NCBI GenBank assembly: GCA_022842205.1
Contig: JALHQA010000005.1
Location: 1-64,000, forward strand
Direction of reading: 5' to 3'
Source: Hyphomicrobiales bacterium
Lineage (GTDB): Bacteria > Pseudomonadota > Alphaproteobacteria > Rhizobiales > Methylopilaceae
Length of the DNA stretch: 64,000 nucleotides
Notes under the pieces: model-generated
What the model saw: the letters and a program-made list of their open reading frames with translations, nothing else
What the model was told of the DNA's origin: nothing
Database searches by the model: none
Program-made: the position numbers and the translations under genes
Shown here: positions 5,916 to 17,592 of the stretch, one piece after another
Position numbering within the stretch: the stretch's first letter is position 1
How the letters are laid out: every line of letters begins with the position of its first letter

Positions 5916-7953
5916 AGCGGCCCTCATCCTTGAAGCGGACAAACGCGGCCGCGCCCTCTGCCATGCGCTTTTCCCACGCATCGGTCGCACTGATGGAAGG
6001 AAGCCGTCCGCGCTCGTTCTTGAACTTCACGGCGCGCACGGCCAGTTCCTTGGCCTCATCGGGCGTGAGGGTCGTGCGTTTGGCTGCGATGGCGGCAGCT
6101 ACCTGTTTGAGGCTTTCCTCGCTCATCGTTTTTGCAAGGATGGCGTATGCTTCGCCGAATGGGTTGATCCGGTCGATAAGATCAATGTCGAGTTCGGTGA
6201 CGCTAAGCGCGAATTTACGCACGCCATCGATCAGGGCAGTGTTAGCGCTCGGCTCGCCATCTGCTTCCTTCTTCGCCTGCTGCGTCAGGGTGAGCGCGGC
6301 GATAGCGTGCTGGCGCACCGCCTCCTGGTCCTCGTCGCTCAGCTCGGGATACTTATCCTTGATGATCTTCCCGAGACGCACTTGCGTAAGCTCCTCTGGC
6401 ACGAGCTCCTCGTCGAACAGACCTCTCTCGATCGCGGTCTTGTCTTGCACGAAGGCCGCGATCACCTCGTTGAGGTCCTCCTGACAGATGCGCGCAGCTT
6501 CGCTGGATTTAGGCTCCACAAGCCCGTTGATTTCGATCTGGAACTGGCCGGTCTGCTCGTTGAAGCCGACATTGCATTTGGTGGGGTCGTATCCGCCTTC
6601 GCCATAGTCGAAGCCAGGCGAAGGGCCGCTCGCCGGATTCTTTGGCTTGAATTCGAAGCGCGGCGCAAGAACCTGCTCCATGAGGAGGCTTGCGGCGATG
6701 GCCTTAAGTGTGTCGTTCACCGCTTCGGTAACAGCCGCCTCCGACGCATCGGGTTCCGCGATCAGATTGGTGAAGCGAGCACGGGTCTTGTTCGGCGCAT
6801 CTCTCGTGGCGCGTCCAATGATCTGGACGATCTCGGTCAGGCTGGAGCGGTATCCGACTGTGAGGGCATGCTCACACCAAATCCAGTCAAAACCCTCCTT
6901 CGCCATCCCGAGCGCGATGATGATGTCCACAAAATCTCGGTTGTTCTTCTGCCTGGGATCCTTGAGCGCCAGCGAGACACGATCCCGCTTGACCGGATCG
7001 TCATCGACGAGATCGGCGATGCGCAGAATTCGCCCCTCGAGCGTTTTGACGAGTTGAAAGCCTGTGAGCGGATCAGCCCCTTGCCACTCGCCCAGCTCGC
7101 CGATGATGTGCTCGACCTCCTTGATCTTGTCCTTCGTGCTCTCGCGCGAGTTGACGTTCGGAATGTGGATGATCGTCTTCTCGGCGGGATCAAGCACCCC
7201 AAGAATGTCGTCGGCATAGGAGCCGGAATAAAAGAAGTATCCGATGTCGAGTTGCTTGAGATACTCGTAGCCGTTGAGCTGCTCGTAATAGGTGTAGGTG
7301 ACGCTCTCGAACTTCGCTTCGTCGTGCGGCGCGAGCACGGCCTCCGCGTCGCCACGGAAATACGAGCCCGTCATCGCCACGATATGCACGCGGTCACGGG
7401 CCATAAACTGGCCGAGATGCTGACCGAGCTTGTTGTCGGGATTGGCCGAGACGTGGTGGAACTCGTCCACCGCGATCAGGCGGCCATCGAATCGCTCCAC
7501 GCCGTATTCGTCCACGGCGAAGCGGAACGTGGCGTGGGTGCAAACCAGCACCTTGTCCTCGCTATCAAGAAAGGCGACGACGGACTTGACCTTACCGCCG
7601 TTGTCCCCGCCAGGCGCATTGCAGAGATTCCACCTCGGCTCGACATGCCAGTCGGCCTCAAAGCCGTACCGGGTGAGCGGCTCGTCATTGAAGCTGGAGC
7701 CGATCGATTTTTCCGGCACGACGATGATAGCCTGCTTCACGTCTTGATGCGCCAGCTTGTCGAGCGCGATGAACATCAGCGCACGGCTTTTCCCGGAGGC
7801 TGGAGGCGACTTGATGAGAAGGTACTGCTCACCGCGCTTTTCGAAGGCGCGCTCCTGCATGGGCCGCATGCCGAGCGCATTGGCTTTGGTCGAAGCGCCG
7901 TTGCGCACATATGAAACCGAAACAGAGGGGACGGATCTCTTTTCGTCGGTCAT
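5908..7953 (-). CDS. DEAD/DEAH-box superfamily 2 helicase of the restriction-like operon
   Basis: A 681-residue SF2 ATPase, probably a DNA translocase acting with the methyltransferase and nucleases. Motif I is SPPASGKS (residues 49-56), motif II is DEFHH (from 163), motif III is MTGSY (194-198) and motif VI is QIIGRATRD (377-385). The last third is helical and lacks any domain I know. The architecture resembles the motor subunits of type III and related restriction systems, but there is no nuclease motif here. ATGA overlap with the methyltransferase at the 5' end and an eight-base overlap with the GIY-YIG gene at the 3' end support one polycistron. Confidence 0.88.
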   Translation of the reverse strand: MTDEKRSVPSVSVSYVRNGASTKANALGMRPMQERAFEKRGEQYLLIKSPPASGKSRALMFIALDKLAHQDVKQAIIVVPEKSIGSSFNDEPLTRYGFEADWHVEPRWNLCNAPGGDNGGKVKSVVAFLDSEDKVLVCTHATFRFAVDEYGVERFDGRLIAVDEFHHVSANPDNKLGQHLGQFMARDRVHIVAMTGSYFRGDAEAVLAPHDEAKFESVTYTYYEQLNGYEYLKQLDIGYFFYSGSYADDILGVLDPAEKTIIHIPNVNSRESTKDKIKEVEHIIGELGEWQGADPLTGFQLVKTLEGRILRIADLVDDDPVKRDRVSLALKDPRQKNNRDFVDIIIALGMAKEGFDWIWCEHALTVGYRSSLTEIVQIIGRATRDAPNKTRARFTNLIAEPDASEAAVTEAVNDTLKAIAASLLMEQVLAPRFEFKPKNPASGPSPGFDYGEGGYDPTKCNVGFNEQTGQFQIEINGLVEPKSSEAARICQEDLNEVIAAFVQDKTAIERGLFDEELVPEELTQVRLGKIIKDKYPELSDEDQEAVRQHAIAALTLTQQAKKEADGEPSANTALIDGVRKFALSVTELDIDLIDRINPFGEAYAILAKTMSEESLKQVAAAIAAKRTTLTPDEAKELAVRAVKFKNERGRLPSISATDAWEKRMAEGAAAFVRFKDEGRYE

Positions 7954-10730
7954 GCGTTTGCCCCCGCCCTGCGTCTTCTGGTTTCGCCCTGCGAAGTGGT
8001 CATCTTCGTGTAAAGATCGAACAGTTTCTCCAGCCGCTCGGTATCATTGCGAAATCTCCGCCCGATATAGATGCGCTCCAGAACCTCGTCGTTGTGCTCG
8101 TGCGCCTGCCGCAGGTCAGACGGCATGTGCTCGGGCTCATAGAGATCTGCAATCGTTGCAGGAAAATGGGCCTCACGGGCGAGGAGAATATCTTCCGCGC
8201 ATCGTGTCAGATCAGCCTTGTTCTTGTCGGTGAGGATTGGAACCGGAAAGGTGTTCCAGCCAATCGTATTCGAGTATCGGAAGTCCGTTTTTAGCTTTCC
8301 GCAGACGGTGGCGACCCAGACCAGATGAAGCCGCGACGCCACGATCGACATATTCCACAACGGTGCATCGTAGAGGGCGAACAACAGATCGCTTACGATC
8401 GTCTCCCGATCGAAAAGATGCACGGGCAGGTAGGGGCGTCTTTCCGACGACACTTTCGCCACGGCCAGTGTGTAGCGCTTGGCAGTGCCCGCGATCTGGA
8501 CGAACCGATAGGGCTTGGAAGCGAAATCCCGAGTCGATGCGGCTGCGCTGCTGGCGCGGAAATCCCGCACGCGGGCTAACAGGGCTCGTAAATATGGGTG
8601 GGCCTCCGCAAACTCGGAGTCCTTGGCCTCGATCCAAACGCACCAGCGGGGCTTTCCCTGAATCATCTGCTCGGAGCCCAGATAGGGCCGGACGAACCGA
8701 CCCAACTCGGGATACTGGTGGAGAACCTGCCTACGCTCATCTGGCGACAAGATGAAATGGCCGCCATCACGCGGCATGTTTCCAAAGAGCATTGGAGATA
8801 GACCTCCGATCGGGCTTCGTGCCGCATCGACGGAAGTGTTGGCGCCGGCCGCAAGGTAGGCGTTGATGTTGCTCACCTGCCGCTCGGTCACCGAACCGTC
8901 ATCGGCGATCGAGAACAGGCGTTTGGAAGCCGGTGCCTCCCGCGAAATGGCGACGATTGCCACAATCACGCCCGCGTTGTGGCTCGCAAGATTGGCCCAT
9001 TTGAATGAGGTATGGGCAAACGAGATCTGGTGGCCGGTGCCGAAAATCAGGGGCCACAGGATCGGAACCTGTTGTCCCTGACAGACCGAATTGGTTGAAA
9101 CGAACGCCGCAGCGGCGTTCGATCTCAAGCCGTAATCCGCAGCCTTCATGAACCAGCCTGCGACATAGTCTAGGGACTTCCATGCGGGCGTGCGACTGTC
9201 AAAAATCGCCCTTAAATCGTCCTTCTGATCCTCGTTCTGCCACTTACTTCCGAGGTAAGGCGGGTTACCACAAATGTACGTTTCGCCACCCTCATTCTCG
9301 AAGTCGATTTGAGCCTGGTCGAGCGGGATGCTGAATAGATCTTCACCTACCAGTTTCACCCCTGTTCCGGTTGGAGGGCAAATGCTTAGCCAATCTAGGC
9401 GCAGGGCGTTGCCTCTAAAAATCCAGTTCTGGGCATCAAGCGGCAGAAGGTCCGCAAGAGCCAGCTTTTGGCCTCGATAGAGCACGTCGCACTGGTACTC
9501 TGCAATTATGAGCGCAAGTCTCGCAATCTCTGCAGGGAAGTCACGCAACTCGATACCGCGGAAGTTCGTCACCGGGATATCAGAAGGTCGATCGGCTTCG
9601 CCACGCCGCGTGTTGATAGTGGCTTCGATATCGCGCATTTCCTTGTAGGCAATGACAAGGAAATTTCCGCTGCCGCAGGCTGGATCGAACACTCTGATTT
9701 TCGATAAGCGTTTGCGCAGATTAAATAGCGTGCGAGCGTTGTCGCCAGCTTCTTCGAGCCGCTGCCGCAAATCATCGAGGAATAGCGGATTCAGTACCTT
9801 CAGAATGTTCGGCACGCTGGTGTAGTGCATCCCGAGCGCACTGCGCTCTTCGTCGTCTGCGACGGCTTGGATCATCGACCCAAAAATATCGGGATTGATC
9901 TGCCTCCAGTCGAGCTTCCCTATATGGATTAAATATGATCGCGCGATCCGGCTGAAGCTCGGTACGTCCGTGTTTCCCGAGAACAGCCCGCCGTTCACGT
10001 AGGGAAACGGCTCGGCCCATCGAGGAAGAGACGCCGAACTTCGATCTTCGCCTTTGGTGTTCATTGCGCGGAAGAGCGTGCCTATGACACTATGGGTGTT
10101 TGACGAGTCTTTCGCGCTCATCTTATCGATTGTGTCGGTAAATAGCCTTGTCTTGCTGAAGATGTCTGTGTCTTCGGCGAAAAAGCAGAAGATCAAGCGC
10201 GCCATGAAATGATTCATGTCGGGCCGCCGCTCTGCCGTGCCCCAATCAGGATTGTCCTTCAAAAGCTCGACATAGAGGCGATTGAGGCGACTAGTCGCTC
10301 TGATGTCGAACGAGTTATCGCGGATTTGCTGAACGGTCGAAATCCCTGCAAGCGGCAGGAAGAAGCCGAAATGATCAGGAAAATCCCCATATGCGGACGC
10401 GACGGTCTCGCCGCTCTCGATATCTTCCGCCTCGAACATATCGCCATCCGTCGCGAGCACGAACTTCGCCTTGGCCCGCGAGGTGGCTGGACTGGCCCTT
10501 AGCGCGAGAAGGGTTTTCGTGACCTCTCCCACGGCGCAGCTAACGATATGGATGTTGTTAGTTTGGAGGACTCCGCCCATGTCCGACTTGTTCGACACGC
10601 CGCTTCGCAGGCGCTTGATAGTGGTTTCCTTGTTGCCGAAGGCCTCTAGAAACGCGAAGGGGAATTCCACTGGGTCGAATGGGCGCTCGGCCAAATCGCT
10701 AACGGCTTGCTCAATTTCAACCGCGTTCAT
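7950..10730 (-). CDS. MmeI-like class I SAM-dependent DNA (adenine-N6) methyltransferase
   Basis: A 926-residue protein of the MmeI-like (type IIL) architecture: an N-terminal region, a helical spacer, the methyltransferase domain, a target-recognition domain, then a C-terminal part. SAM-binding motif I is FDPACGSGNF (from 348) and the catalytic motif IV is NPPY (489-492), typical of gamma-class N6-adenine enzymes. In MmeI itself the N-terminus is a PD-(D/E)xK nuclease. I cannot find a convincing one here, so cutting is probably done by the GIY-YIG or PLD proteins. It should methylate host sites and, through its recognition domain, set the system's specificity. It overlaps the RHH gene (ATGA) and the helicase gene (ATGA). 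Confidence 0.88.
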   Translation of the reverse strand: MNAVEIEQAVSDLAERPFDPVEFPFAFLEAFGNKETTIKRLRSGVSNKSDMGGVLQTNNIHIVSCAVGEVTKTLLALRASPATSRAKAKFVLATDGDMFEAEDIESGETVASAYGDFPDHFGFFLPLAGISTVQQIRDNSFDIRATSRLNRLYVELLKDNPDWGTAERRPDMNHFMARLIFCFFAEDTDIFSKTRLFTDTIDKMSAKDSSNTHSVIGTLFRAMNTKGEDRSSASLPRWAEPFPYVNGGLFSGNTDVPSFSRIARSYLIHIGKLDWRQINPDIFGSMIQAVADDEERSALGMHYTSVPNILKVLNPLFLDDLRQRLEEAGDNARTLFNLRKRLSKIRVFDPACGSGNFLVIAYKEMRDIEATINTRRGEADRPSDIPVTNFRGIELRDFPAEIARLALIIAEYQCDVLYRGQKLALADLLPLDAQNWIFRGNALRLDWLSICPPTGTGVKLVGEDLFSIPLDQAQIDFENEGGETYICGNPPYLGSKWQNEDQKDDLRAIFDSRTPAWKSLDYVAGWFMKAADYGLRSNAAAAFVSTNSVCQGQQVPILWPLIFGTGHQISFAHTSFKWANLASHNAGVIVAIVAISREAPASKRLFSIADDGSVTERQVSNINAYLAAGANTSVDAARSPIGGLSPMLFGNMPRDGGHFILSPDERRQVLHQYPELGRFVRPYLGSEQMIQGKPRWCVWIEAKDSEFAEAHPYLRALLARVRDFRASSAAASTRDFASKPYRFVQIAGTAKRYTLAVAKVSSERRPYLPVHLFDRETIVSDLLFALYDAPLWNMSIVASRLHLVWVATVCGKLKTDFRYSNTIGWNTFPVPILTDKNKADLTRCAEDILLAREAHFPATIADLYEPEHMPSDLRQAHEHNDEVLERIYIGRRFRNDTERLEKLFDLYTKMTTSQGETRRRRAGANA

Positions 10731-11273: not shown

Positions 11274-11350
11274 TGGCGCACCCATCAGGATTCGAACCTG
11301 AGACCTCTACCTTCGGAGGGTAGCGCTCTATCCAGCTGAGCTATGGGTGC
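11274..11350 (-). tRNA. tRNA-Arg (anticodon CCG)
   Basis: The complete 77-nt cloverleaf reads on the minus strand. The acceptor is GCACCCA paired with TGGGTGC, the D arm is GCTC..GAGC, and the anticodon stem CTACC/GGTAG encloses loop CTCCGAA (anticodon CCG). The T arm contains GGTTCGAATCC, the discriminator is G, and CCA is encoded. A 5' half of a related tRNA lies 125 bases upstream of it, suggesting an integration event. Confidence 0.95.
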
Positions 11351-11625: not shown

Positions 11626-11655
11626 TGATCCAGGCAAGTGCCTCACTCGTTCTGT
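11626..11655 (+). promoter_or_regulatory. Candidate RpoE (ECF11) promoter for the DUF2177 gene
   Basis: TGATCC (11626-11631) matches the -35 element seen upstream of rpoE and the lipid operon. After 18 bases comes TTCTGT, a poor match to the TAA-type -10. The gene starts 19 bases further on. Spacing is right but the -10 is weak. Confidence 0.4.
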
Positions 11656-11674: not shown

Positions 11675-12094
11675 ATGCGCATTCTGATCGCCTATTTCAC
11701 GGTTCTCGCGAGCTTCGCCGTCATCGACACGCTGTGGCTCGGGACGATGGCGTCACGCATCTACCGGCCGCTTCTCGGTGATATCCTCGTCGACAATTTC
11801 CGGGTGGTTCCGGCGGTTGTCTTTTATGCGTTCTATGCGGCGGGGCTTGTCGTCTTCGCCGTGGGGCCAGCGCTCCGGTCGGGCGAATGGACTTCGGCGC
11901 TGCTGTGGGGCGCGCTGTTCGGCCTGTTCGCCTATGGTACGTACGACCTGACCAACTATGCCACGCTGCGTAACTGGGGATTCCAGATCACCGCCATCGA
12001 CATGGCCTGGGGAACCTTCGTCAGCGGAACAGCGAGCGTTGTCGCCTATTTCATGTCGTCCTGGCTGATCCGCCTGTTTGGCGCGGCGGCCTAG
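11675..12094 (+). CDS. DUF2177 family membrane protein
   Basis: A 139-residue integral membrane protein with about four hydrophobic segments. The family signature region is visible: an N-terminal TM helix with VIDTLWLG, a central VFYAFYAAGL segment, then FGLFAYGTYDLTNYATL and IDMAWGT. The biochemical function is unknown, but DUF2177 genes recur beside RpoE/ChrR photo-oxidative stress modules, and a candidate RpoE -35 element lies upstream here. ATG 11675 was chosen over an upstream in-frame start because the hydrophobic N-terminus begins there, after AGGAAAAGG. Its 3' end overlaps the convergent DUF1295 gene by 44 bases. Confidence 0.85.
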   Translation: MRILIAYFTVLASFAVIDTLWLGTMASRIYRPLLGDILVDNFRVVPAVVFYAFYAAGLVVFAVGPALRSGEWTSALLWGALFGLFAYGTYDLTNYATLRNWGFQITAIDMAWGTFVSGTASVVAYFMSSWLIRLFGAAA

Positions 12095-12881
12095 GAAAGA
12101 ACGCCGGGACGCGCTTCTGGTAATCGGCGAACGCCCTGCCGCGCGAGCGCAGCATATGGGCTTCGAGCGGCGGGATTCCGGAGACATGGACCAGAAGCCA
12201 GTACATGAAGGCCGGGCCCGTCAGGGCAAGCCATCCCCACGGATAATCGCCCGACAGGTCGATGGCGAACAGCGCGTAGGCGAACCAGCCGGTCCATTCG
12301 AAAAAATAGTTCGGATGCCGTGACCAGGCCCAGAGGCCCTCATCGCAAACCTTGCCGCGGTTTTGCGGATTGCGGGCGAACGCGCGGAGTTGCCGGTCCG
12401 CGATGCCTTCGCCGATGACCGCAACGGCAAGAACCGCGATGGCCGCCCAGTCCTGGATACGGAACTCCGGTTGCGGGTTCTGTGCGGCGACAAGCATGGA
12501 CAGCGCAAGAAAAGCTCCCGCGCCCGCTTGAATCTGGAGGAACGTAAAAAGGCGGCGCTGGAAATTCGCACCCCATTCCTTGCGGAACTGGGCATAGCGC
12601 GCGTCCTCCGGTCCGCTCAGCGAACGCTGCGCGATATGCCCGCCGAGACGAAGGCCCCAGACGGCGACGAGCGCGGCGACGACGAGCTGCCGCGTGGTCG
12701 GATAGTCCGCTCCGGCGACCGGAACCAAAGCGAGCGCAGATCCCGAGAGGCCGAGGCCGAGCGACCAGAACGCGTCCGACCATCCGGCATTGCCGGTGAC
12801 GCGCTGCATCAGCCATGCGCCGGACATCACGGCGGCGAGAAATACGCACGCGGCTATGACAGCAAAGACCGGGAGCATCAT
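12051..12881 (-). CDS. DUF1295 family protein (steroid 5-alpha-reductase-like membrane protein)
   Basis: A 276-residue polytopic membrane protein with about six or seven TM segments. The DUF1295 pattern is clear: LGGHIAQR after the first helices, a YAQFRKEWG loop, then the C-terminal LWAWSRHPNYFFEW block and RGRAFADYQKRVPAFFP at the end. These relate it to steroid 5-alpha-reductase and isoprenylcysteine methyltransferase folds that act on lipids with NADPH or SAM. The substrate is unknown. It starts 13 bases after chrR and so belongs to the rpoE-chrR transcript, suggesting a membrane-lipid role in the oxidative response. Confidence 0.88.
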   Translation of the reverse strand: MMLPVFAVIAACVFLAAVMSGAWLMQRVTGNAGWSDAFWSLGLGLSGSALALVPVAGADYPTTRQLVVAALVAVWGLRLGGHIAQRSLSGPEDARYAQFRKEWGANFQRRLFTFLQIQAGAGAFLALSMLVAAQNPQPEFRIQDWAAIAVLAVAVIGEGIADRQLRAFARNPQNRGKVCDEGLWAWSRHPNYFFEWTGWFAYALFAIDLSGDYPWGWLALTGPAFMYWLLVHVSGIPPLEAHMLRSRGRAFADYQKRVPAFFPRPPRQTGGSARTT

Positions 12882-12894
12882 CGCCCGCCCGGCG

Positions 12895-13533
12895 CTAGAG
12901 ACGCACGAAAGGCTGCAGCAGCCGCCCGACGACGCCTTCGAGCCTCACCTTGCCCATCAGCGAGACGACACAGATACACGGCACATCCGAATCGATGACC
13001 GGGCGATGGCTTATGTCGGAGTCGGCCTCTTCGAAATCGCCGGGACCGTAGCGGCCGCTCTCGTCCGAGTAGGAGCCGGAGATGACGCAGGTCAGCTCGA
13101 CGCCGGAATGCGTATGCTGCGGCATCTTCCGGCCAGGATCGATCTTGAACATGATGACCCGGTGATCGCCGTCCTCGGGCGTCAGTACGCGGCGAATCTG
13201 CGTGCCGCGGCCCGCCGTGCGCCAGGGAGTCATCTGGTAACGCCGCAGCGGCTCGGGGAAAGCCGCAATTTCCGGATCCGGCATCGGTGCGTTGCCGTAT
13301 CCCGGCACGGCGTCGATCCGCGCAAGGGTGCGCGCGAGAGCATCGGTGTGGAGTGCTGCCGGCGGAAGGCGGTCGAGCAGCGCGCCGCCGGCATGTTCGA
13401 GCGCCTCGACGAGGCTGCGCGACCGCGGGCACAGCGCAAGATGCGTTTCGATGACGAGCGCTTGCGCCTCCGTCAATACGCCGGTCGCGTAGGCAATCAT
13501 GATGTCGTCGCTGGGGAGATGCCGCACGGTCAT
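12895..13533 (-). CDS. chrR: ChrR family anti-sigma factor (ZAS domain plus cupin)
   Basis: ChrR holds RpoE inactive until singlet oxygen or organic peroxides release it. The N-terminal zinc-binding anti-sigma domain has His5, His31 and Cys35 in the HxxxC pattern. The fourth ligand, Cys38 in the Rhodobacter protein, is Ser here (CPRS). The C-terminal cupin domain has the HTHSGVE metal motif and a downstream His in ISHRP, matching the sensory domain. The gene overlaps rpoE by ATGA. The missing cysteine may weaken zinc binding or be offset by another residue. Confidence 0.92.
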   Translation of the reverse strand: MTVRHLPSDDIMIAYATGVLTEAQALVIETHLALCPRSRSLVEALEHAGGALLDRLPPAALHTDALARTLARIDAVPGYGNAPMPDPEIAAFPEPLRRYQMTPWRTAGRGTQIRRVLTPEDGDHRVIMFKIDPGRKMPQHTHSGVELTCVISGSYSDESGRYGPGDFEEADSDISHRPVIDSDVPCICVVSLMGKVRLEGVVGRLLQPFVRL

Positions 13534-14138
13534 TGCATGTCTCCCAGCGTTTCACGCAGGCGTGCTACGGCGAGGCGCAGGCGTGATTTCACGGTGCCGA
13601 GGGGCAGCCCGAGACGGCGGGAAATCTCGCCGTGGGCGAGATCGTGGAAGTACGAAAGCTGCAGCACCTTTCTCTGCTCCTCGGGCAAAGCCGACAGGGC
13701 CTCGTTGACCCGGCGGGCGTTCTCGCTCTCGTCGAATGCAGCGTCCGGCAATATGGGATCGTCGGGGAGTTCGCTCGGGTCGGGCTCGCGGAAAGCGAGC
13801 CGGTTCCGGCGCAGGGCATCAATACGCAGATTGCGCGCGATGGTGAAAATCCAGGAGGAGGCCGCGGCACGTTCGGGATTGTAGAAGGCCGCCTTGTGCC
13901 AGACGATCAGCATTGCCTCCTGGGCAAAATCCTCCGCCGTCACGGCATCGGCGCCGGAGCGCATCAGGAACGCTTTGAGGCGTGGCGCGAAATGCGCAAA
14001 CAGGCGCGCGAACGCCTCGCGGTCGCGCGAGGAGGCGACCGCCACGATCATTTGGCCGAAGTCCGGCCCGCTCACAGGTTGCCGCATCGGCCACGGCGGC
14101 GAACGAGCCCAGGAAGTCTGAACAGCACCATGCATCAT
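13530..14138 (-). CDS. rpoE: RpoE-type ECF sigma factor (ECF11)
   Basis: A sigma-70-family ECF factor of about 200 residues. Region 2 has FARLFAHFAPRLKAFL and DFAQEAMLIVW, with ASSWIFTIARNLRID after it. Region 4 has LPEEQRKVLQLSYF, GEISRRLGLPLGTVKSRL and the closing helix. Coupling to chrR places it in the ECF11 singlet-oxygen group. The start is uncertain: the predicted RpoE promoter puts transcription start at about 14135, so an ATG at 14135 would be leaderless, and Met at 14087 is the alternative. No good ribosome site precedes either. It probably autoregulates and drives the divergent lipid operon. Confidence 0.92.
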   Translation of the reverse strand: MMHGAVQTSWARSPPWPMRQPVSGPDFGQMIVAVASSRDREAFARLFAHFAPRLKAFLMRSGADAVTAEDFAQEAMLIVWHKAAFYNPERAAASSWIFTIARNLRIDALRRNRLAFREPDPSELPDDPILPDAAFDESENARRVNEALSALPEEQRKVLQLSYFHDLAHGEISRRLGLPLGTVKSRLRLAVARLRETLGDMQ

Positions 14139-14141
14139 GCC

Positions 14142-14171
14142 CTGTTACGCAAAGGGGGACATTCCGGATCA
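14142..14171 (-). promoter_or_regulatory. RpoE-dependent promoter of rpoE-chrR (predicted)
   Basis: On the minus strand TGATCC (14171-14166) is followed after exactly 18 bases by TAACAG (14147-14142). TGATCC is the known -35 of ECF11 RpoE in Rhodobacter. This implies autoregulation, with a transcript start near 14135, right at the annotated start codon. Confidence 0.7.
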
Positions 14172-14176
14172 GTCGC

Positions 14177-14206
14177 TGATCCAAAATATCCCGTGCCCCG
14201 TAATAG
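14177..14206 (+). promoter_or_regulatory. RpoE-dependent promoter of the FAD oxidoreductase/lipid operon (predicted)
   Basis: TGATCC (14177-14182), an 18-base spacer and TAATAG (14201-14206) mirror the rpoE promoter. The two -35 elements point away from each other and are separated by only five bases. Transcription would start about 46 bases before the oxidoreductase ATG. Confidence 0.7.
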
Positions 14207-14259
14207 GCTAAGCAGCGCGCAGTGTCAGGCCACGGCTGCCGGGGTGAGCCGGAGGGTTT

Positions 14260-15603
14260 ATGGAGGTTGTCAACGCGCGGCCGGACCGGCCGCTGGAAAT
14301 CGCGGTCATCGGCTCGGGCATATCCGGGCTGAGCTGCGCATGGCTGTTGTCGAGCCGCCACCGCGTCACGCTCTATGAACGAGCGGACCGGCTGGGAGGC
14401 CATTCGAACACGGCCGAGGCCGGCGTACCCGGCGCGCCGCTGCCGGTCGATACCGGCTTCATTGTCTATAATGAACGCACCTACCCGAACCTGACTGCGC
14501 TGTTCGAGCACATGGGCGTGCCGACAAAGCCATCCGATATGTCGTTCGCGGTCTCGCTCGGCGACGGCGGGTGCGAATATTCCGGCACCGGTCTTGGCGG
14601 GCTGTTCGCCCAGGCCTCCAATCTCGCGCGTCCGCGCTTCTGGTCGATGTTGCGCGATTTGAGGCGGCTCTACAGCAATGCGCCGCGCGATCTGCGCTGG
14701 CTTTCAGGGTCCGGCATGACGCTGGGGACCTATCTCGATCTCGGCGGCTATGGCGAAGCGGTGCGCGACGATCACATCCTGCCGATGGCGGCGGCGATCT
14801 GGTCGACGCCGGCGCGGGATGTCCTCGACTACCCGGCCGAAAGCTTCATCCGCTTCTGTTGCAATCATGGCCTTCTCCAGGTGCGCGACCGCCCGGTCTG
14901 GCGCACGGTGGACGGCGGCAGCCGGGTCTATGTCGAAAAACTCGCGCGGCGGATCAGCAATGGCGTGCGTACGGGAGCCGCGGCGGTGCGGCTGCGTCGC
15001 GGGCCGGACGGTGTCGTCGTTGAGGACGGTCATGGCCGCGAAACACGATTCGACCAGGTCGTCGTCGCGACGCACGCCGATCAGGCGCTTGCGCTGCTCG
15101 ACGATCCCTCGCCGGATGAGCGCCGTCTGCTGGGTGCATTCCGCTATTCCAGCAATATCGCGGTTCTCCATTCCGACGACAGGCTGATGCCCCGGCGCCG
15201 CGTGGTGTGGTCGAGCTGGAACTATCTCGACCGCGGCGACGGGCTTTGCGTCACCTACTGGATGAATCGTCTCCAGGGTTTCGGCGGCCGCGATCTTTTC
15301 GTCACCCTTAATCCGGGTCATGCGCCGCGACAGGGTTCGATTGTCATGAGCGAGGTCTACGAGCACCCCTTGTTCGATGCCGCGGCTGCGCAGGCGCAGA
15401 AGGAGATCTGGTCGCTCCAGGGCAAACGCGGGACCTGGTTCTGCGGCGCGCATTTCGGTGCGGGTTTTCACGAGGATGGGCTGCAGGCCGGGCTCGCCGT
15501 GGCCGAACAGCTCGGCCATGTGCGGCGGCCATGGCGTGTGGCGGACGAAAGCGGCCGTATCCATGTGCGACCGGCCGCGAGCGCGGAGAAGGCGCTGTCA
15601 TGA
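14260..15603 (+). CDS. NAD(P)/FAD-dependent oxidoreductase (amine-oxidase/desaturase-like)
   Basis: A 447-residue flavoprotein with the dinucleotide-binding loop IGSGISGLS at residues 17-25, an ERADRLGGH second motif and a C-terminal FCGAHFGAGFHEDG FAD motif. It belongs to the phytoene-desaturase/amine-oxidase-like group. In Rhodobacter sphaeroides a similar gene in an RpoE-controlled cluster takes part in furan fatty acid synthesis as a fatty-acyl desaturase; this one may do the same. ATG follows GGAGGG. Its stop overlaps the DUF1365 start (ATGA), and the promoter upstream is RpoE-type. Confidence 0.9.
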   Translation: MEVVNARPDRPLEIAVIGSGISGLSCAWLLSSRHRVTLYERADRLGGHSNTAEAGVPGAPLPVDTGFIVYNERTYPNLTALFEHMGVPTKPSDMSFAVSLGDGGCEYSGTGLGGLFAQASNLARPRFWSMLRDLRRLYSNAPRDLRWLSGSGMTLGTYLDLGGYGEAVRDDHILPMAAAIWSTPARDVLDYPAESFIRFCCNHGLLQVRDRPVWRTVDGGSRVYVEKLARRISNGVRTGAAAVRLRRGPDGVVVEDGHGRETRFDQVVVATHADQALALLDDPSPDERRLLGAFRYSSNIAVLHSDDRLMPRRRVVWSSWNYLDRGDGLCVTYWMNRLQGFGGRDLFVTLNPGHAPRQGSIVMSEVYEHPLFDAAAAQAQKEIWSLQGKRGTWFCGAHFGAGFHEDGLQAGLAVAEQLGHVRRPWRVADESGRIHVRPAASAEKALS

Positions 15604-16406
15604 CACTCGCCTCGGGCCTCTATACGGGTTCGGTCACCCATGTCCGCGCGCGCCCGCGTCACCACCGGCTGGCCTATCGCGCGTTCTGGTTTCTGCTTGA
15701 TCTCGACGAGATCGACAGCCTTTCAAAATCGCTGCGCTTCTTCAGCCGGGACCGCTTCAACCTGTTTTCCTTCCACGACGCCGACCACGCCCACGCGCCC
15801 GGCGTGCCGCTGCGCCGGCAGATCGAAACCACGCTGCGCGATGCGGGCATCGATCTTCACGGCGGAGCGATCCGGCTTTTGTGCATGCCGCGTGTGCTCG
15901 GCTATGTATTCAATCCGATCAGCGTCTACTTCTGTCATGACGCCGGTGGCGAACTCTCCGCGATCATCTACGAAGTAACGAACACATTTTCCCAGCGGCA
16001 TTCCTATCTGATCCCGGTCGACCGCGACGAGGCGGTGCGGCGCCGGACGATCCGGCAGTCCGCACGCAAGATGCTGTATGTGTCGCCCTTCGTCGGCATG
16101 GATATCACCTATGATTTCCGCGTGATGGAGCCGGCGGAGGTGGTGTCGCTCACCATTCGCGGCTCCGATCCCGAAGGTCTCCTCATCACCGCCTCGATGA
16201 TCGGCGTGCGCTCCGAATTCTCCGATCGCGCTCTTCTGCGAGCCGCTCTCACGCATCCGTTTCTGACGATCAAGGTGATCGGCGCAATCCACTGGGAAGC
16301 GCTGAAGCTCTGGATCAAAGGCGTCAAGCTTACCCACCGTCCCGCGCCCCCGCGCGCGCCCGTTACTCTCGTTACGTCGAAGGCAGTCCCAGATGTCGGT
16401 GCATGA
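15600..16406 (+). CDS. DUF1365 domain-containing protein
   Basis: A 268-residue protein of family DUF1365, which nearly always sits between an FAD oxidoreductase and a cyclopropane-synthase-like gene. Landmarks are an N-terminal RHHRLAYRAFWFLLDLDE, the central RVLGYVFNPISVYFC block with SAIIYEVTNTF, and a K(M)YVSPF-type motif in RKMLYVSPFVGMD. The function is unproven, but context places it in lipid modification. ATG 15600 overlaps the previous stop as ATGA, and its 3' end overlaps the next gene by 14 bases, so the three products are probably made together. Confidence 0.93.
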   Translation: MTLASGLYTGSVTHVRARPRHHRLAYRAFWFLLDLDEIDSLSKSLRFFSRDRFNLFSFHDADHAHAPGVPLRRQIETTLRDAGIDLHGGAIRLLCMPRVLGYVFNPISVYFCHDAGGELSAIIYEVTNTFSQRHSYLIPVDRDEAVRRRTIRQSARKMLYVSPFVGMDITYDFRVMEPAEVVSLTIRGSDPEGLLITASMIGVRSEFSDRALLRAALTHPFLTIKVIGAIHWEALKLWIKGVKLTHRPAPPRAPVTLVTSKAVPDVGA

Positions 16407-17592
16407 CCATACAGCCTACGCCGTGCCGGACAGGCTTCCCTCCCGGTTCGCCGCCCGGCTGCTGCGGGCCGTGATTGGAAGCGTGCGCTGCGGGACGGTC
16501 CGCATATGCCTGCCGTCGGGCGAAACGATCGATGCGCGGGGCGTTGAGGCGGGCCCTTCGGCCACGCTCGTTATTCATGACTGGCGCGCCTTGCGCCGCA
16601 TGGCCTTGTCGGGCGATCTCGGCTTCGCCGCCGCGTATATCGAAGGCGAATGGACGAGCCCAAACCTGCCGGATACGATCGAATTCTTCGCACGCAATGC
16701 GAAAGCAATCGCGGCGGCGCCTCGGCCCTTCGGCGTGCGGCTCGCAAGCCGGTTGTGGCACATGGCGCATCCCAATTCCCGCGAGGGAAGCCGCAGGAAC
16801 ATCAGCTTCCACTACGATCTCGGCAATGAATTCTACCGCCACTGGCTCGATGCCGGGATGCAGTATTCTTCCGCGATCTATGCCCCGGGCGACACGCTGG
16901 AGCAGGCGCAAGCCCGCAAGCTCGAGCGAATCCTTGCTCTTCTTGATGTGAAGGGCGGCCAGCGCGTGCTTGAAATCGGCTGCGGATGGGGTGCTCTCGC
17001 CGAGCGCGTGCTCGAGGCCGGATGTTCGGTCGCCGGTCTCACCCTGTCGCAGGAGCAGGCCGCCTTTGCCCGTGCGCGCCTTGCGCCCTACGGGGATCGG
17101 GCGGATGTCCGCCTGCAGGACTACCGCGACGTCGATGGCAGGTTCGACCGCATCGTGTCGGTCGAGATGATCGAGGCGGTCGGCGAAAAATATTGGCCGT
17201 GCTATTTCAAGGCGCTGAGGGAGCGGCTCGCCCATGGCGGGCTCGCCGTCGTGCAGGCCATCACCATCCGTGACGACAGGTTCGAGCGCTATCGCCGCAA
17301 CCCCGATTTCATACAGCGTTACATCTTTCCGGGCGGCATGCTGCCGACCGCTTCAATCATTCGCGGCCGCGCAGAAGCCGCCGGGTTTGAGACCGTGCAT
17401 ACGGAAATGTTCGGCGCCAGCTATGCGAAGACGCTCGCCGATTGGCGTCGGCGCTTCCACGCCGCACGCCACGACATCGAGGCTCAGGGTTTCGACCGGC
17501 GCTTCATGCGGATGTGGGACTATTATCTGTCCTATTGCGAAGCAGGTTTCCGTTCCGGAACGATTGACGTGGGCTTTTACGTTTTTCGTTGA
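16393..17592 (+). CDS. Cyclopropane-fatty-acyl-phospholipid synthase family methyltransferase
   Basis: A 399-residue SAM-dependent enzyme that methylates or cyclopropanates double bonds of acyl chains in membrane phospholipids. Family blocks are the N-terminal GDLGFAAAYIEGEW, the substrate-site FHYDLGNEFY..W and MQYSSAIY, SAM motif I LEIGCGWGAL, the VEMIEAVG segment, and FPGGMLPT near the C-terminus. Length is typical. It ends the RpoE-driven operon, followed by a terminator at 17652-17680. By analogy with Rhodobacter it could make a methylated acyl chain leading to furan fatty acids rather than a cyclopropane. Which product cannot be seen. Confidence 0.93.
   Translation: MSVHDHTAYAVPDRLPSRFAARLLRAVIGSVRCGTVRICLPSGETIDARGVEAGPSATLVIHDWRALRRMALSGDLGFAAAYIEGEWTSPNLPDTIEFFARNAKAIAAAPRPFGVRLASRLWHMAHPNSREGSRRNISFHYDLGNEFYRHWLDAGMQYSSAIYAPGDTLEQAQARKLERILALLDVKGGQRVLEIGCGWGALAERVLEAGCSVAGLTLSQEQAAFARARLAPYGDRADVRLQDYRDVDGRFDRIVSVEMIEAVGEKYWPCYFKALRERLAHGGLAVVQAITIRDDRFERYRRNPDFIQRYIFPGGMLPTASIIRGRAEAAGFETVHTEMFGASYAKTLADWRRRFHAARHDIEAQGFDRRFMRMWDYYLSYCEAGFRSGTIDVGFYVFR

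Follow-up and report, generated by a model that had tools for sequence, protein, structure and literature searches.

The window analysed here, a 64,000-nucleotide stretch of DNA from a Hyphomicrobiales bacterium, carries an rpoE gene and a divergent operon separated by a short region in which two promoter-like sequences stand back to back. This arrangement raises the question of whether the region is a single compact switch, as an earlier note on this DNA proposed, or two promoters of one kind, and where the messages they direct would begin. The reading favored here, to which we give a probability of roughly 0.85, is that the region controls an ECF11 RpoE-ChrR system of the singlet-oxygen/peroxide type, that both operons would be driven by RpoE, and that the leftward message would be leaderless or nearly so.

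The genes and associated features on the two sides of the region are as follows.

13530 to 14138, minus strand: rpoE, encoding an ECF sigma factor with Sigma70_r2 and Sigma70_r4_2 domains (202 amino acids from the ATG at 14138, 201 from that at 14135)
12895 to 13533, minus strand: chrR, encoding a zinc/cupin anti-sigma factor with a Cupin_7 domain; adjoins rpoE
13420 to 13422, minus strand: ChrR residue 38, serine in place of cysteine
12051 to 12881, minus strand: DUF1295 gene, 3' of chrR
14251 to 14256, plus strand: Shine-Dalgarno sequence GGAGGG of the oxidase gene
14260 to 15603, plus strand: flavin amine-oxidase-like gene (RSP_1091 type), first gene of the divergent operon
15531 to 16406, plus strand: DUF1365 gene (RSP_1090 type), given from its ORF-finder start; the true start is probably later
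16393 to 17592, plus strand: cyclopropane/mycolic-acid-synthase-like (CMAS) methyltransferase gene, 3' of the DUF1365 gene

The best solved-structure match of the window RpoE is R. sphaeroides RpoE (2q1z, E 1.4e-44), and the nearest named protein among the matches returned is the RpoE of Aquabacter, an alphaproteobacterium of the Hyphomicrobiales, at 60% identity. ChrR scores 197.3 bits against TIGR02451, above the cut-off of 124.5, and 281.5 bits against NF051881, slightly below the cut-off of 300. Its cupin ligands (HTHSGVE) are present, and its HxxxCxxC zinc motif is incomplete, reading HLALCPRS with the last cysteine replaced by serine. The same serine occurs in six of 93 ChrR rows: the window, its congeners L005 and L006, Aquabacter (L034) and two Phyllobacterium loci (L056 and L109). 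HxxxC was not seen in the stretch searched in 11 of the 93, including two from Brevundimonas. Judged by sequence, the window protein is a variant ChrR that still passes TIGR02451. The DUF1295 gene is probably the third member of an rpoE-chrR operon, given its short distance from chrR, and it follows chrR in several relatives as well (for example, L034, L040 and L041). An MmeI-type restriction-methylation gene (926 amino acids, 7950 to 10730, minus strand, with Pfam MmeI domains) and a tRNA-Arg(CCG) gene (11274 to 11350, minus strand) also lie near the rpoE region, and it is possible that they mark an integration boundary.

Between the two operons are the following elements.

14146 to 14171, minus strand: putative RpoE-type (ECF11) promoter of rpoE, with -35 TGATCC at 14171 to 14166, a 16-base spacer and -10 CGTA at 14149 to 14146
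14177 to 14202, plus strand: putative RpoE-type promoter of the oxidase-DUF1365-CMAS operon, with -35 TGATCC at 14177 to 14182, a 16-base spacer and -10 CGTA at 14199 to 14202
14172 to 14176, no strand: gap GTCGC between the -35 elements, center of a 17-bp inverted repeat

The earlier note had described these promoters as TGATCC-N18-TAACAG reading left and TGATCC-N18-TAATAG reading right, nearly symmetric and five bases apart. Both sequences are present, at 14171 to 14142 on the minus strand and 14177 to 14206 on the plus strand, the five bases are those of the gap, and the symmetry extends to a perfect 17-bp inverted repeat, GGATCA-GTCGC-TGATCC, at 14166 to 14182. The pattern TGATCCN17-19TAANAG has two matches in the window compared to 0.01 expected from 100 dinucleotide shuffles, and three in the 2.78-Mb genome: the window pair, at N18, and one N17 match elsewhere. 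TGATCC also stands as the -35 element of ECF11 RpoE, but TAANAG does not stand as the -10 element. Relatives keep CGTA at N16 instead, and the bases of -ANAG are only weakly conserved. The first -10 model, TAANAG at N17-19, was replaced because it missed most relatives. Its successor comes from aligning the TGATC[CT] sites that relatives have between rpoE and the adjacent divergent gene, where the C, G, T and A at N16 are found in 119, 118, 114 and 111 of 139 sites, with little conservation 3' of CGTA. Both window promoters are exact fits to TGATCC-N16-CGTA. This is the ChIP-seq consensus reported from Pseudomonas syringae (PMC5507510), and one RpoE promoter of R. sphaeroides is given as TGATCC(N15)GCGTA (PMC5036791).

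The double promoter is conserved. A set of 110 rpoE-like loci was assembled from 30 in the window's own genome and its relatives, the window included, and 80 in named genomes; a ChrR match is present in 93, and the oxidase gene and rpoE diverge in 68. Among these 68, TGATC[CT]N16CGT[AT] is directed towards rpoE in 64, towards the oxidase in 42 and both ways in 39, where dinucleotide shuffles predict 0.09, 0.09 and 0.0 loci, respectively. The 42 loci without a divergent oxidase have the motif towards rpoE in 19 cases and away from it in two. A separate draw, which covered 385 genomes of the class, gave 16 with two such sites back to back and no more than 30 bp between them; a reversed-pattern control gave none. 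Of these 16 close pairs, 11 separate rpoE from the oxidase gene, the window's own among them, one lies between rpoE and a DUF1365 gene (2 bp) and one between the oxidase and DUF2177 genes (3 bp). The other three (L146, L148 and L149) have no window protein within about 1.5 kb, and each is near a short-chain dehydrogenase gene. One locus outside the class, L176, has a 2-bp pair at rpoE, and a search of viral contigs found no relative. Other gene pairs, too, can have RpoE-type sites diverging between them, with gaps of 2, 3, 14 or 23 bp (L142, L143, L146, L148, L149 and L176).

Close spacing is recurrent and exact geometry is not maintained. The gap between -35 elements is 5 bp in the window, 7 and 3 bp in its two congeners (L005 and L006) and 3 to 179 bp across the 39 loci with both motifs, so that a fixed 'switch' is unsupported. 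The earlier proposal of one compact switch for autoregulation and the lipid operon therefore survives in part. Motifs, gene identities, conservation and the published R. sphaeroides work give good support to RpoE as the driver of both operons, but the variation of the gap even within the genus speaks against a coupled unit. A related idea is that the adjacent promoters are mutually exclusive, such that an RpoE-polymerase must choose between self-amplification and output. Their predicted starts are about 74 bp apart, with the -35 elements separated by only the five bases of the gap; 21 of 54 gaps collected are 16 bp or less, and gaps of 2 to 3 bp recur at L142, L143 and L176. A conserved gap length is nevertheless not seen, with a median of 23.5 bp and a maximum of 179 bp for the same 54, nor is there convincing helical phasing among the 50 gaps of 62 bp or less (Rayleigh p 0.63, 0.17 and 0.04 for periods of 10.0, 10.5 and 11.0). 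Competition of this kind, as judged from the layout of the sites, is the alternative that survives best, and we regard it as a tentative proposal with the odds somewhat against it.

Sites of the same type are found elsewhere in the genome. The looser pattern TGATCYN16CGTW has 21 matches, compared to none for the reversed-pattern control. Five matches have strict TGATCC and CGTA. Two of these fall within other reading frames, and the other three immediately precede rpoE, the oxidase operon and a gene that Pfam identifies as a photolyase. Most of the remaining looser matches are located in long reading frames. Two sites outside the divergent region merit listing.

11626 to 11651, plus strand: third RpoE-type site in the window, TGATCC-N16-CGTT, before the DUF2177 gene
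75057 to 75082 of contig C10 of the window's genome (G000:C10:75057-75082, locus L133): RpoE-type site of the photolyase gene, assigned by motif and Pfam

The third site, absent from the earlier note, is 23 nt 5' of the likely DUF2177 ATG at 11675; the ORF-finder start of this gene (11618) is upstream of the site. The 3' ends of the DUF2177 gene (plus strand) and the DUF1295 gene (minus strand) overlap tail to tail by 44 bases (12051 to 12094). The photolyase ATG begins only 10 nt past CGTA, right after a tRNA-like sequence recognized by eye. Photolyase and oxidase/DUF1365 genes are among the reported RpoE targets (PMC5507510, PMC3818230), and a review puts the conserved core regulon at about eight genes (PMC6852236). 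The window and its genome present several features of an ECF11 system: sigma regions 2 and 4, an adjacent ChrR-type gene, and TGATCC-N16-CGTA before rpoE, the oxidase operon and the photolyase gene, with CGTT in place of CGTA before the DUF2177 gene.

The most informative part of this locus, which the earlier note did not include, is the presence of the rpoE AUG at the expected first base of its transcript.

14133 to 14138, minus strand: tandem ATG ATG, predicted rpoE start codon or codons, beginning 7 and 10 nt after CGTA

A promoter before rpoE was recognized at 94 loci, 83 of the 110 and 11 from the class draw. In 37 of them an ATG begins 8 nt past CGTA and in 28 the distance is 9 nt, for a total of 65. 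All 37 of the former and 27 of the latter, or 64 of the 65, are in frame with rpoE. ATG counts at most other offsets up to 60 nt range from 0 to 6, with a lesser rise (5 to 13) at 10 to 14 nt that is due to tandem ATGs. An in-frame ATG is found within 14 nt in 70 of the 94 loci and is missing from 24. The three Burkholderiales genera in the named set (L059, L066 and L112) each have the ATG. In the window, the offsets of 7 and 10 nt differ from the modal 8 or 9. Positions 8 to 9 nt after CGTA correspond here to 14137 to 14136, which places them inside the first ATG, with the second beginning one or two bases later. Therefore, either the first ATG would be +1 or the second would have a leader of a base or two.

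Two held-out samples show the same arrangement. A phylum-wide draw gave 26 loci, of which 23 were kept and 15 have the promoter. The ATG is at 8 to 9 nt in ten of the 15, nine of them in frame, and five are without it; of the four promoter-bearing loci in this draw that lie outside the class, one has the ATG and three do not. The second sample consists of 30 Rhodobacteraceae-like loci, those most like R. sphaeroides from 195 matching genomes in 394, with the family inferred from the query. The promoter is present in 29 of these loci and an ATG begins at exactly 8 nt in 27 of the 29. All 27 ATGs are in frame, and 26 frames are open to the sigma domain; the exception (L210) has a stop within the extension. 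Oxidase and photolyase promoters serve as controls. An ATG is found 8 nt after CGTA in only one of 42 oxidase promoters, out of frame, and at 9 nt in none. The 30 photolyase loci read gave 18 promoters, all of them without an in-frame start at 8 to 9 nt. An in-frame photolyase start at 10 nt is seen in this genome and at one of the promoters of 17 relatives. Between the rpoE ATG and the sigma domain, stops are present in frames 0, +1 and +2 in 0, 55 and 40 of 57 loci, respectively, and in 1, 26 and 15 of the 27 held-out loci.

The position of +1 can be estimated from another ECF factor. The Caulobacter SigT motif GGAAC-N16-CGTT is reported about 35 bases upstream of mapped starts, with one variant site at -34 (PMC4287350). 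If the first base of this motif is at about -35, then +1 falls about 9 nt past the -10 core, which is the place of the AUG. The available text of the R. sphaeroides Pos19 paper gives no usable start-site distance. Messages of this kind have been reported in Sinorhizobium meliloti, with 171 leaderless mRNAs that begin with AUG (PMC3616915). By analogy with SigT, the rpoE mRNA is probably leaderless or nearly so, and the frame data indicate that RpoE is probably longer than annotated.

The additional N-terminal residues are variable in sequence and length across relatives. In a codon-based comparison of the extension, dN is lower than dS in ten of 12 related pairs, higher in one (L008/L082) and paired with an undefined dS in one (L004/L005); the pairs overlap and the effect is modest. 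Annotated starts are usually further in. Eight plasmid-borne annotated copies were examined from 25 matching records, and seven carry the motif. All seven have an in-frame ATG 8 to 10 nt past CGTA, and in no case does the annotation begin at this codon: six annotated starts are 19 to 34 codons later without an intervening stop and one is 45 codons earlier. The solved R. sphaeroides RpoE is a short form with 11 residues before the matching domain. R. sphaeroides itself is not among the genomes drawn, in which its best match has 78% identity. In the window, a shorter protein could start at the next in-frame ATG.

14085 to 14087, minus strand: next in-frame ATG, candidate start of a shorter RpoE, with no Shine-Dalgarno-like match found

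The 30 Rhodobacteraceae-like loci also show a second cluster of candidate start codons, GTG for the most part, 7 to 10 codons ahead of the domain. An ATG or GTG lies 5 to 15 codons before the domain in 25 of them, 15 having a Shine-Dalgarno-like 4-mer. In an earlier Rhodobacterales set, the equivalent figure for 8 to 18 codons is 19 of 22, eight with such a 4-mer, where the background is 94 of 792 codons. Because of this second cluster and its Shine-Dalgarno-like 4-mers, two RpoE forms are plausible on sequence grounds in Rhodobacteraceae. Over 61 loci, internal starts show little Shine-Dalgarno excess (53 of 176 start codons versus 601 of 2447 control codons).

These annotations have another interpretation, in which the AUG at 8 to 9 nt is a promoter or initiator element and RpoE starts internally, as annotated. 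The six plasmid copies with later starts and the short form of the solved protein are consistent with it. So is the precedent of Bradyrhizobium japonicum ecfF (ECF16), where the mapped start overlapped the annotated ATG and the authors moved the start codon downstream (PMC3420878). The oxidase and photolyase controls are without the ATG, and this interpretation is rejected for that reason. It also does not account for an AUG in frame at 64 of 65 and 27 of 27 loci, followed by a frame that is nearly stop-free when the other two are not. We consider it improbable, though it deserves more weight than the two doubts that concern the promoter pair itself.

The first of these is that only one promoter is active and the other is a chance match. 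The 26 of 68 loci that lack a motif towards the oxidase at the threshold TGATC[CT]N16CGT[AT] could be taken in this way. Chance nevertheless supplies only 0.01 matches per window and, in shuffled sequence, 0.09 of the 68 loci on each side, and both promoters are retained in congeners L005 and L006, which makes this explanation very unlikely. A site for a dimeric regulator requires fixed spacing. The weakest alternative, that the perfect inverted repeat is the operator of a dimeric repressor or activator and its promoter likeness is secondary, does not fit the 39 two-motif loci and is rejected: their gaps span 3 to 179 bp, and each half keeps its own CGT[AT] at N16.

The preferred reading, an RpoE-ChrR control region with two RpoE promoters, suggests the following circuit. 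Once freed from ChrR, presumably by a singlet-oxygen or peroxide signal, RpoE would bind RNA polymerase and direct transcription leftward into rpoE-chrR, probably with the DUF1295 gene, and rightward into the oxidase-DUF1365-CMAS operon. If R. sphaeroides is a guide, ChrR would then be broken down with the help of the oxidase and DUF1365 proteins, which makes the loop a positive one, and membrane lipids would be modified by the methyltransferase. The leftward message would begin at or near the AUG at 14138 or 14135. The rightward message is predicted to start at about 14211 and would have an ordinary leader of about 49 nt with a Shine-Dalgarno sequence.

The promoter pair confirms a known circuit in another genome. 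If the leaderless start is real, the consequences are wider: databases place the start of this well-studied stress sigma factor wrongly, studies on short RpoE may have used a truncated form, and the extension becomes a testable candidate for the switch-off of the RpoE-ChrR loop. A more speculative scheme, which we think is rather less likely to hold than to fail, covers much of the Alphaproteobacteria and some Burkholderiales. A leaderless autoregulated mRNA would yield an unannotated extended ECF11 RpoE, and Rhodobacteraceae at least would also make a short RpoE by starting translation internally. A difference between the long and short proteins in their stability or their binding to ChrR would then provide a built-in brake on the loop, convergent with Streptomyces SigR/SigR'.

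The circuit proposed in the earlier note is already known in kind from published work on R. sphaeroides and Shewanella. In R. sphaeroides, both operons are described as having an RpoE-dependent promoter, with a positive loop through ChrR proteolysis (PMC3818230), and the gene neighborhood is reported to be well conserved in Alphaproteobacteria. Compared by published description, the window resembles the ECF11 locus rpoE-chrR/RSP_1091-1087 of that organism in having RSP_1091- and RSP_1090-type genes upstream of rpoE-chrR (PMC3818230, PMC6852236). It differs in that the CMAS gene directly follows the DUF1365 gene and the DUF2177 gene has its own putative promoter. Promoters of this type are also listed for Shewanella oneidensis rpoE2 and its neighbor SO_1987; expressing RpoE2 increased the transcripts of chrR and of SO_1987 (PMC4336711). 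That locus, rpoE2-chrR (SO_1986-1985) with SO_1987, thus shares the promoter type at the sigma gene and its neighbor, but SO_1987 is a Lon-domain gene whereas the neighbor in the window is the oxidase.

The rpoE AUG at the predicted start of its own transcript looks to be new. The accessible portions of the R. sphaeroides accounts make no mention of a leaderless start or an RpoE extension, and no description of a leaderless or extended ECF11 RpoE was found in the accessible parts of the open-licence literature searched. The nearest precedent found for an extended RpoE is Streptomyces SigR', a longer and unstable sigma factor described as made from an upstream ATG on an autoregulated transcript, with short SigR coming from a separate downstream promoter (PMC5472188, PMC4921905). 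The SigR/SigR' and RsrA system and the window appear alike in combining an autoregulated ECF promoter, a zinc anti-sigma factor and an in-frame upstream ATG. Unlike that of SigR', the rpoE AUG in the window is predicted to be leaderless.
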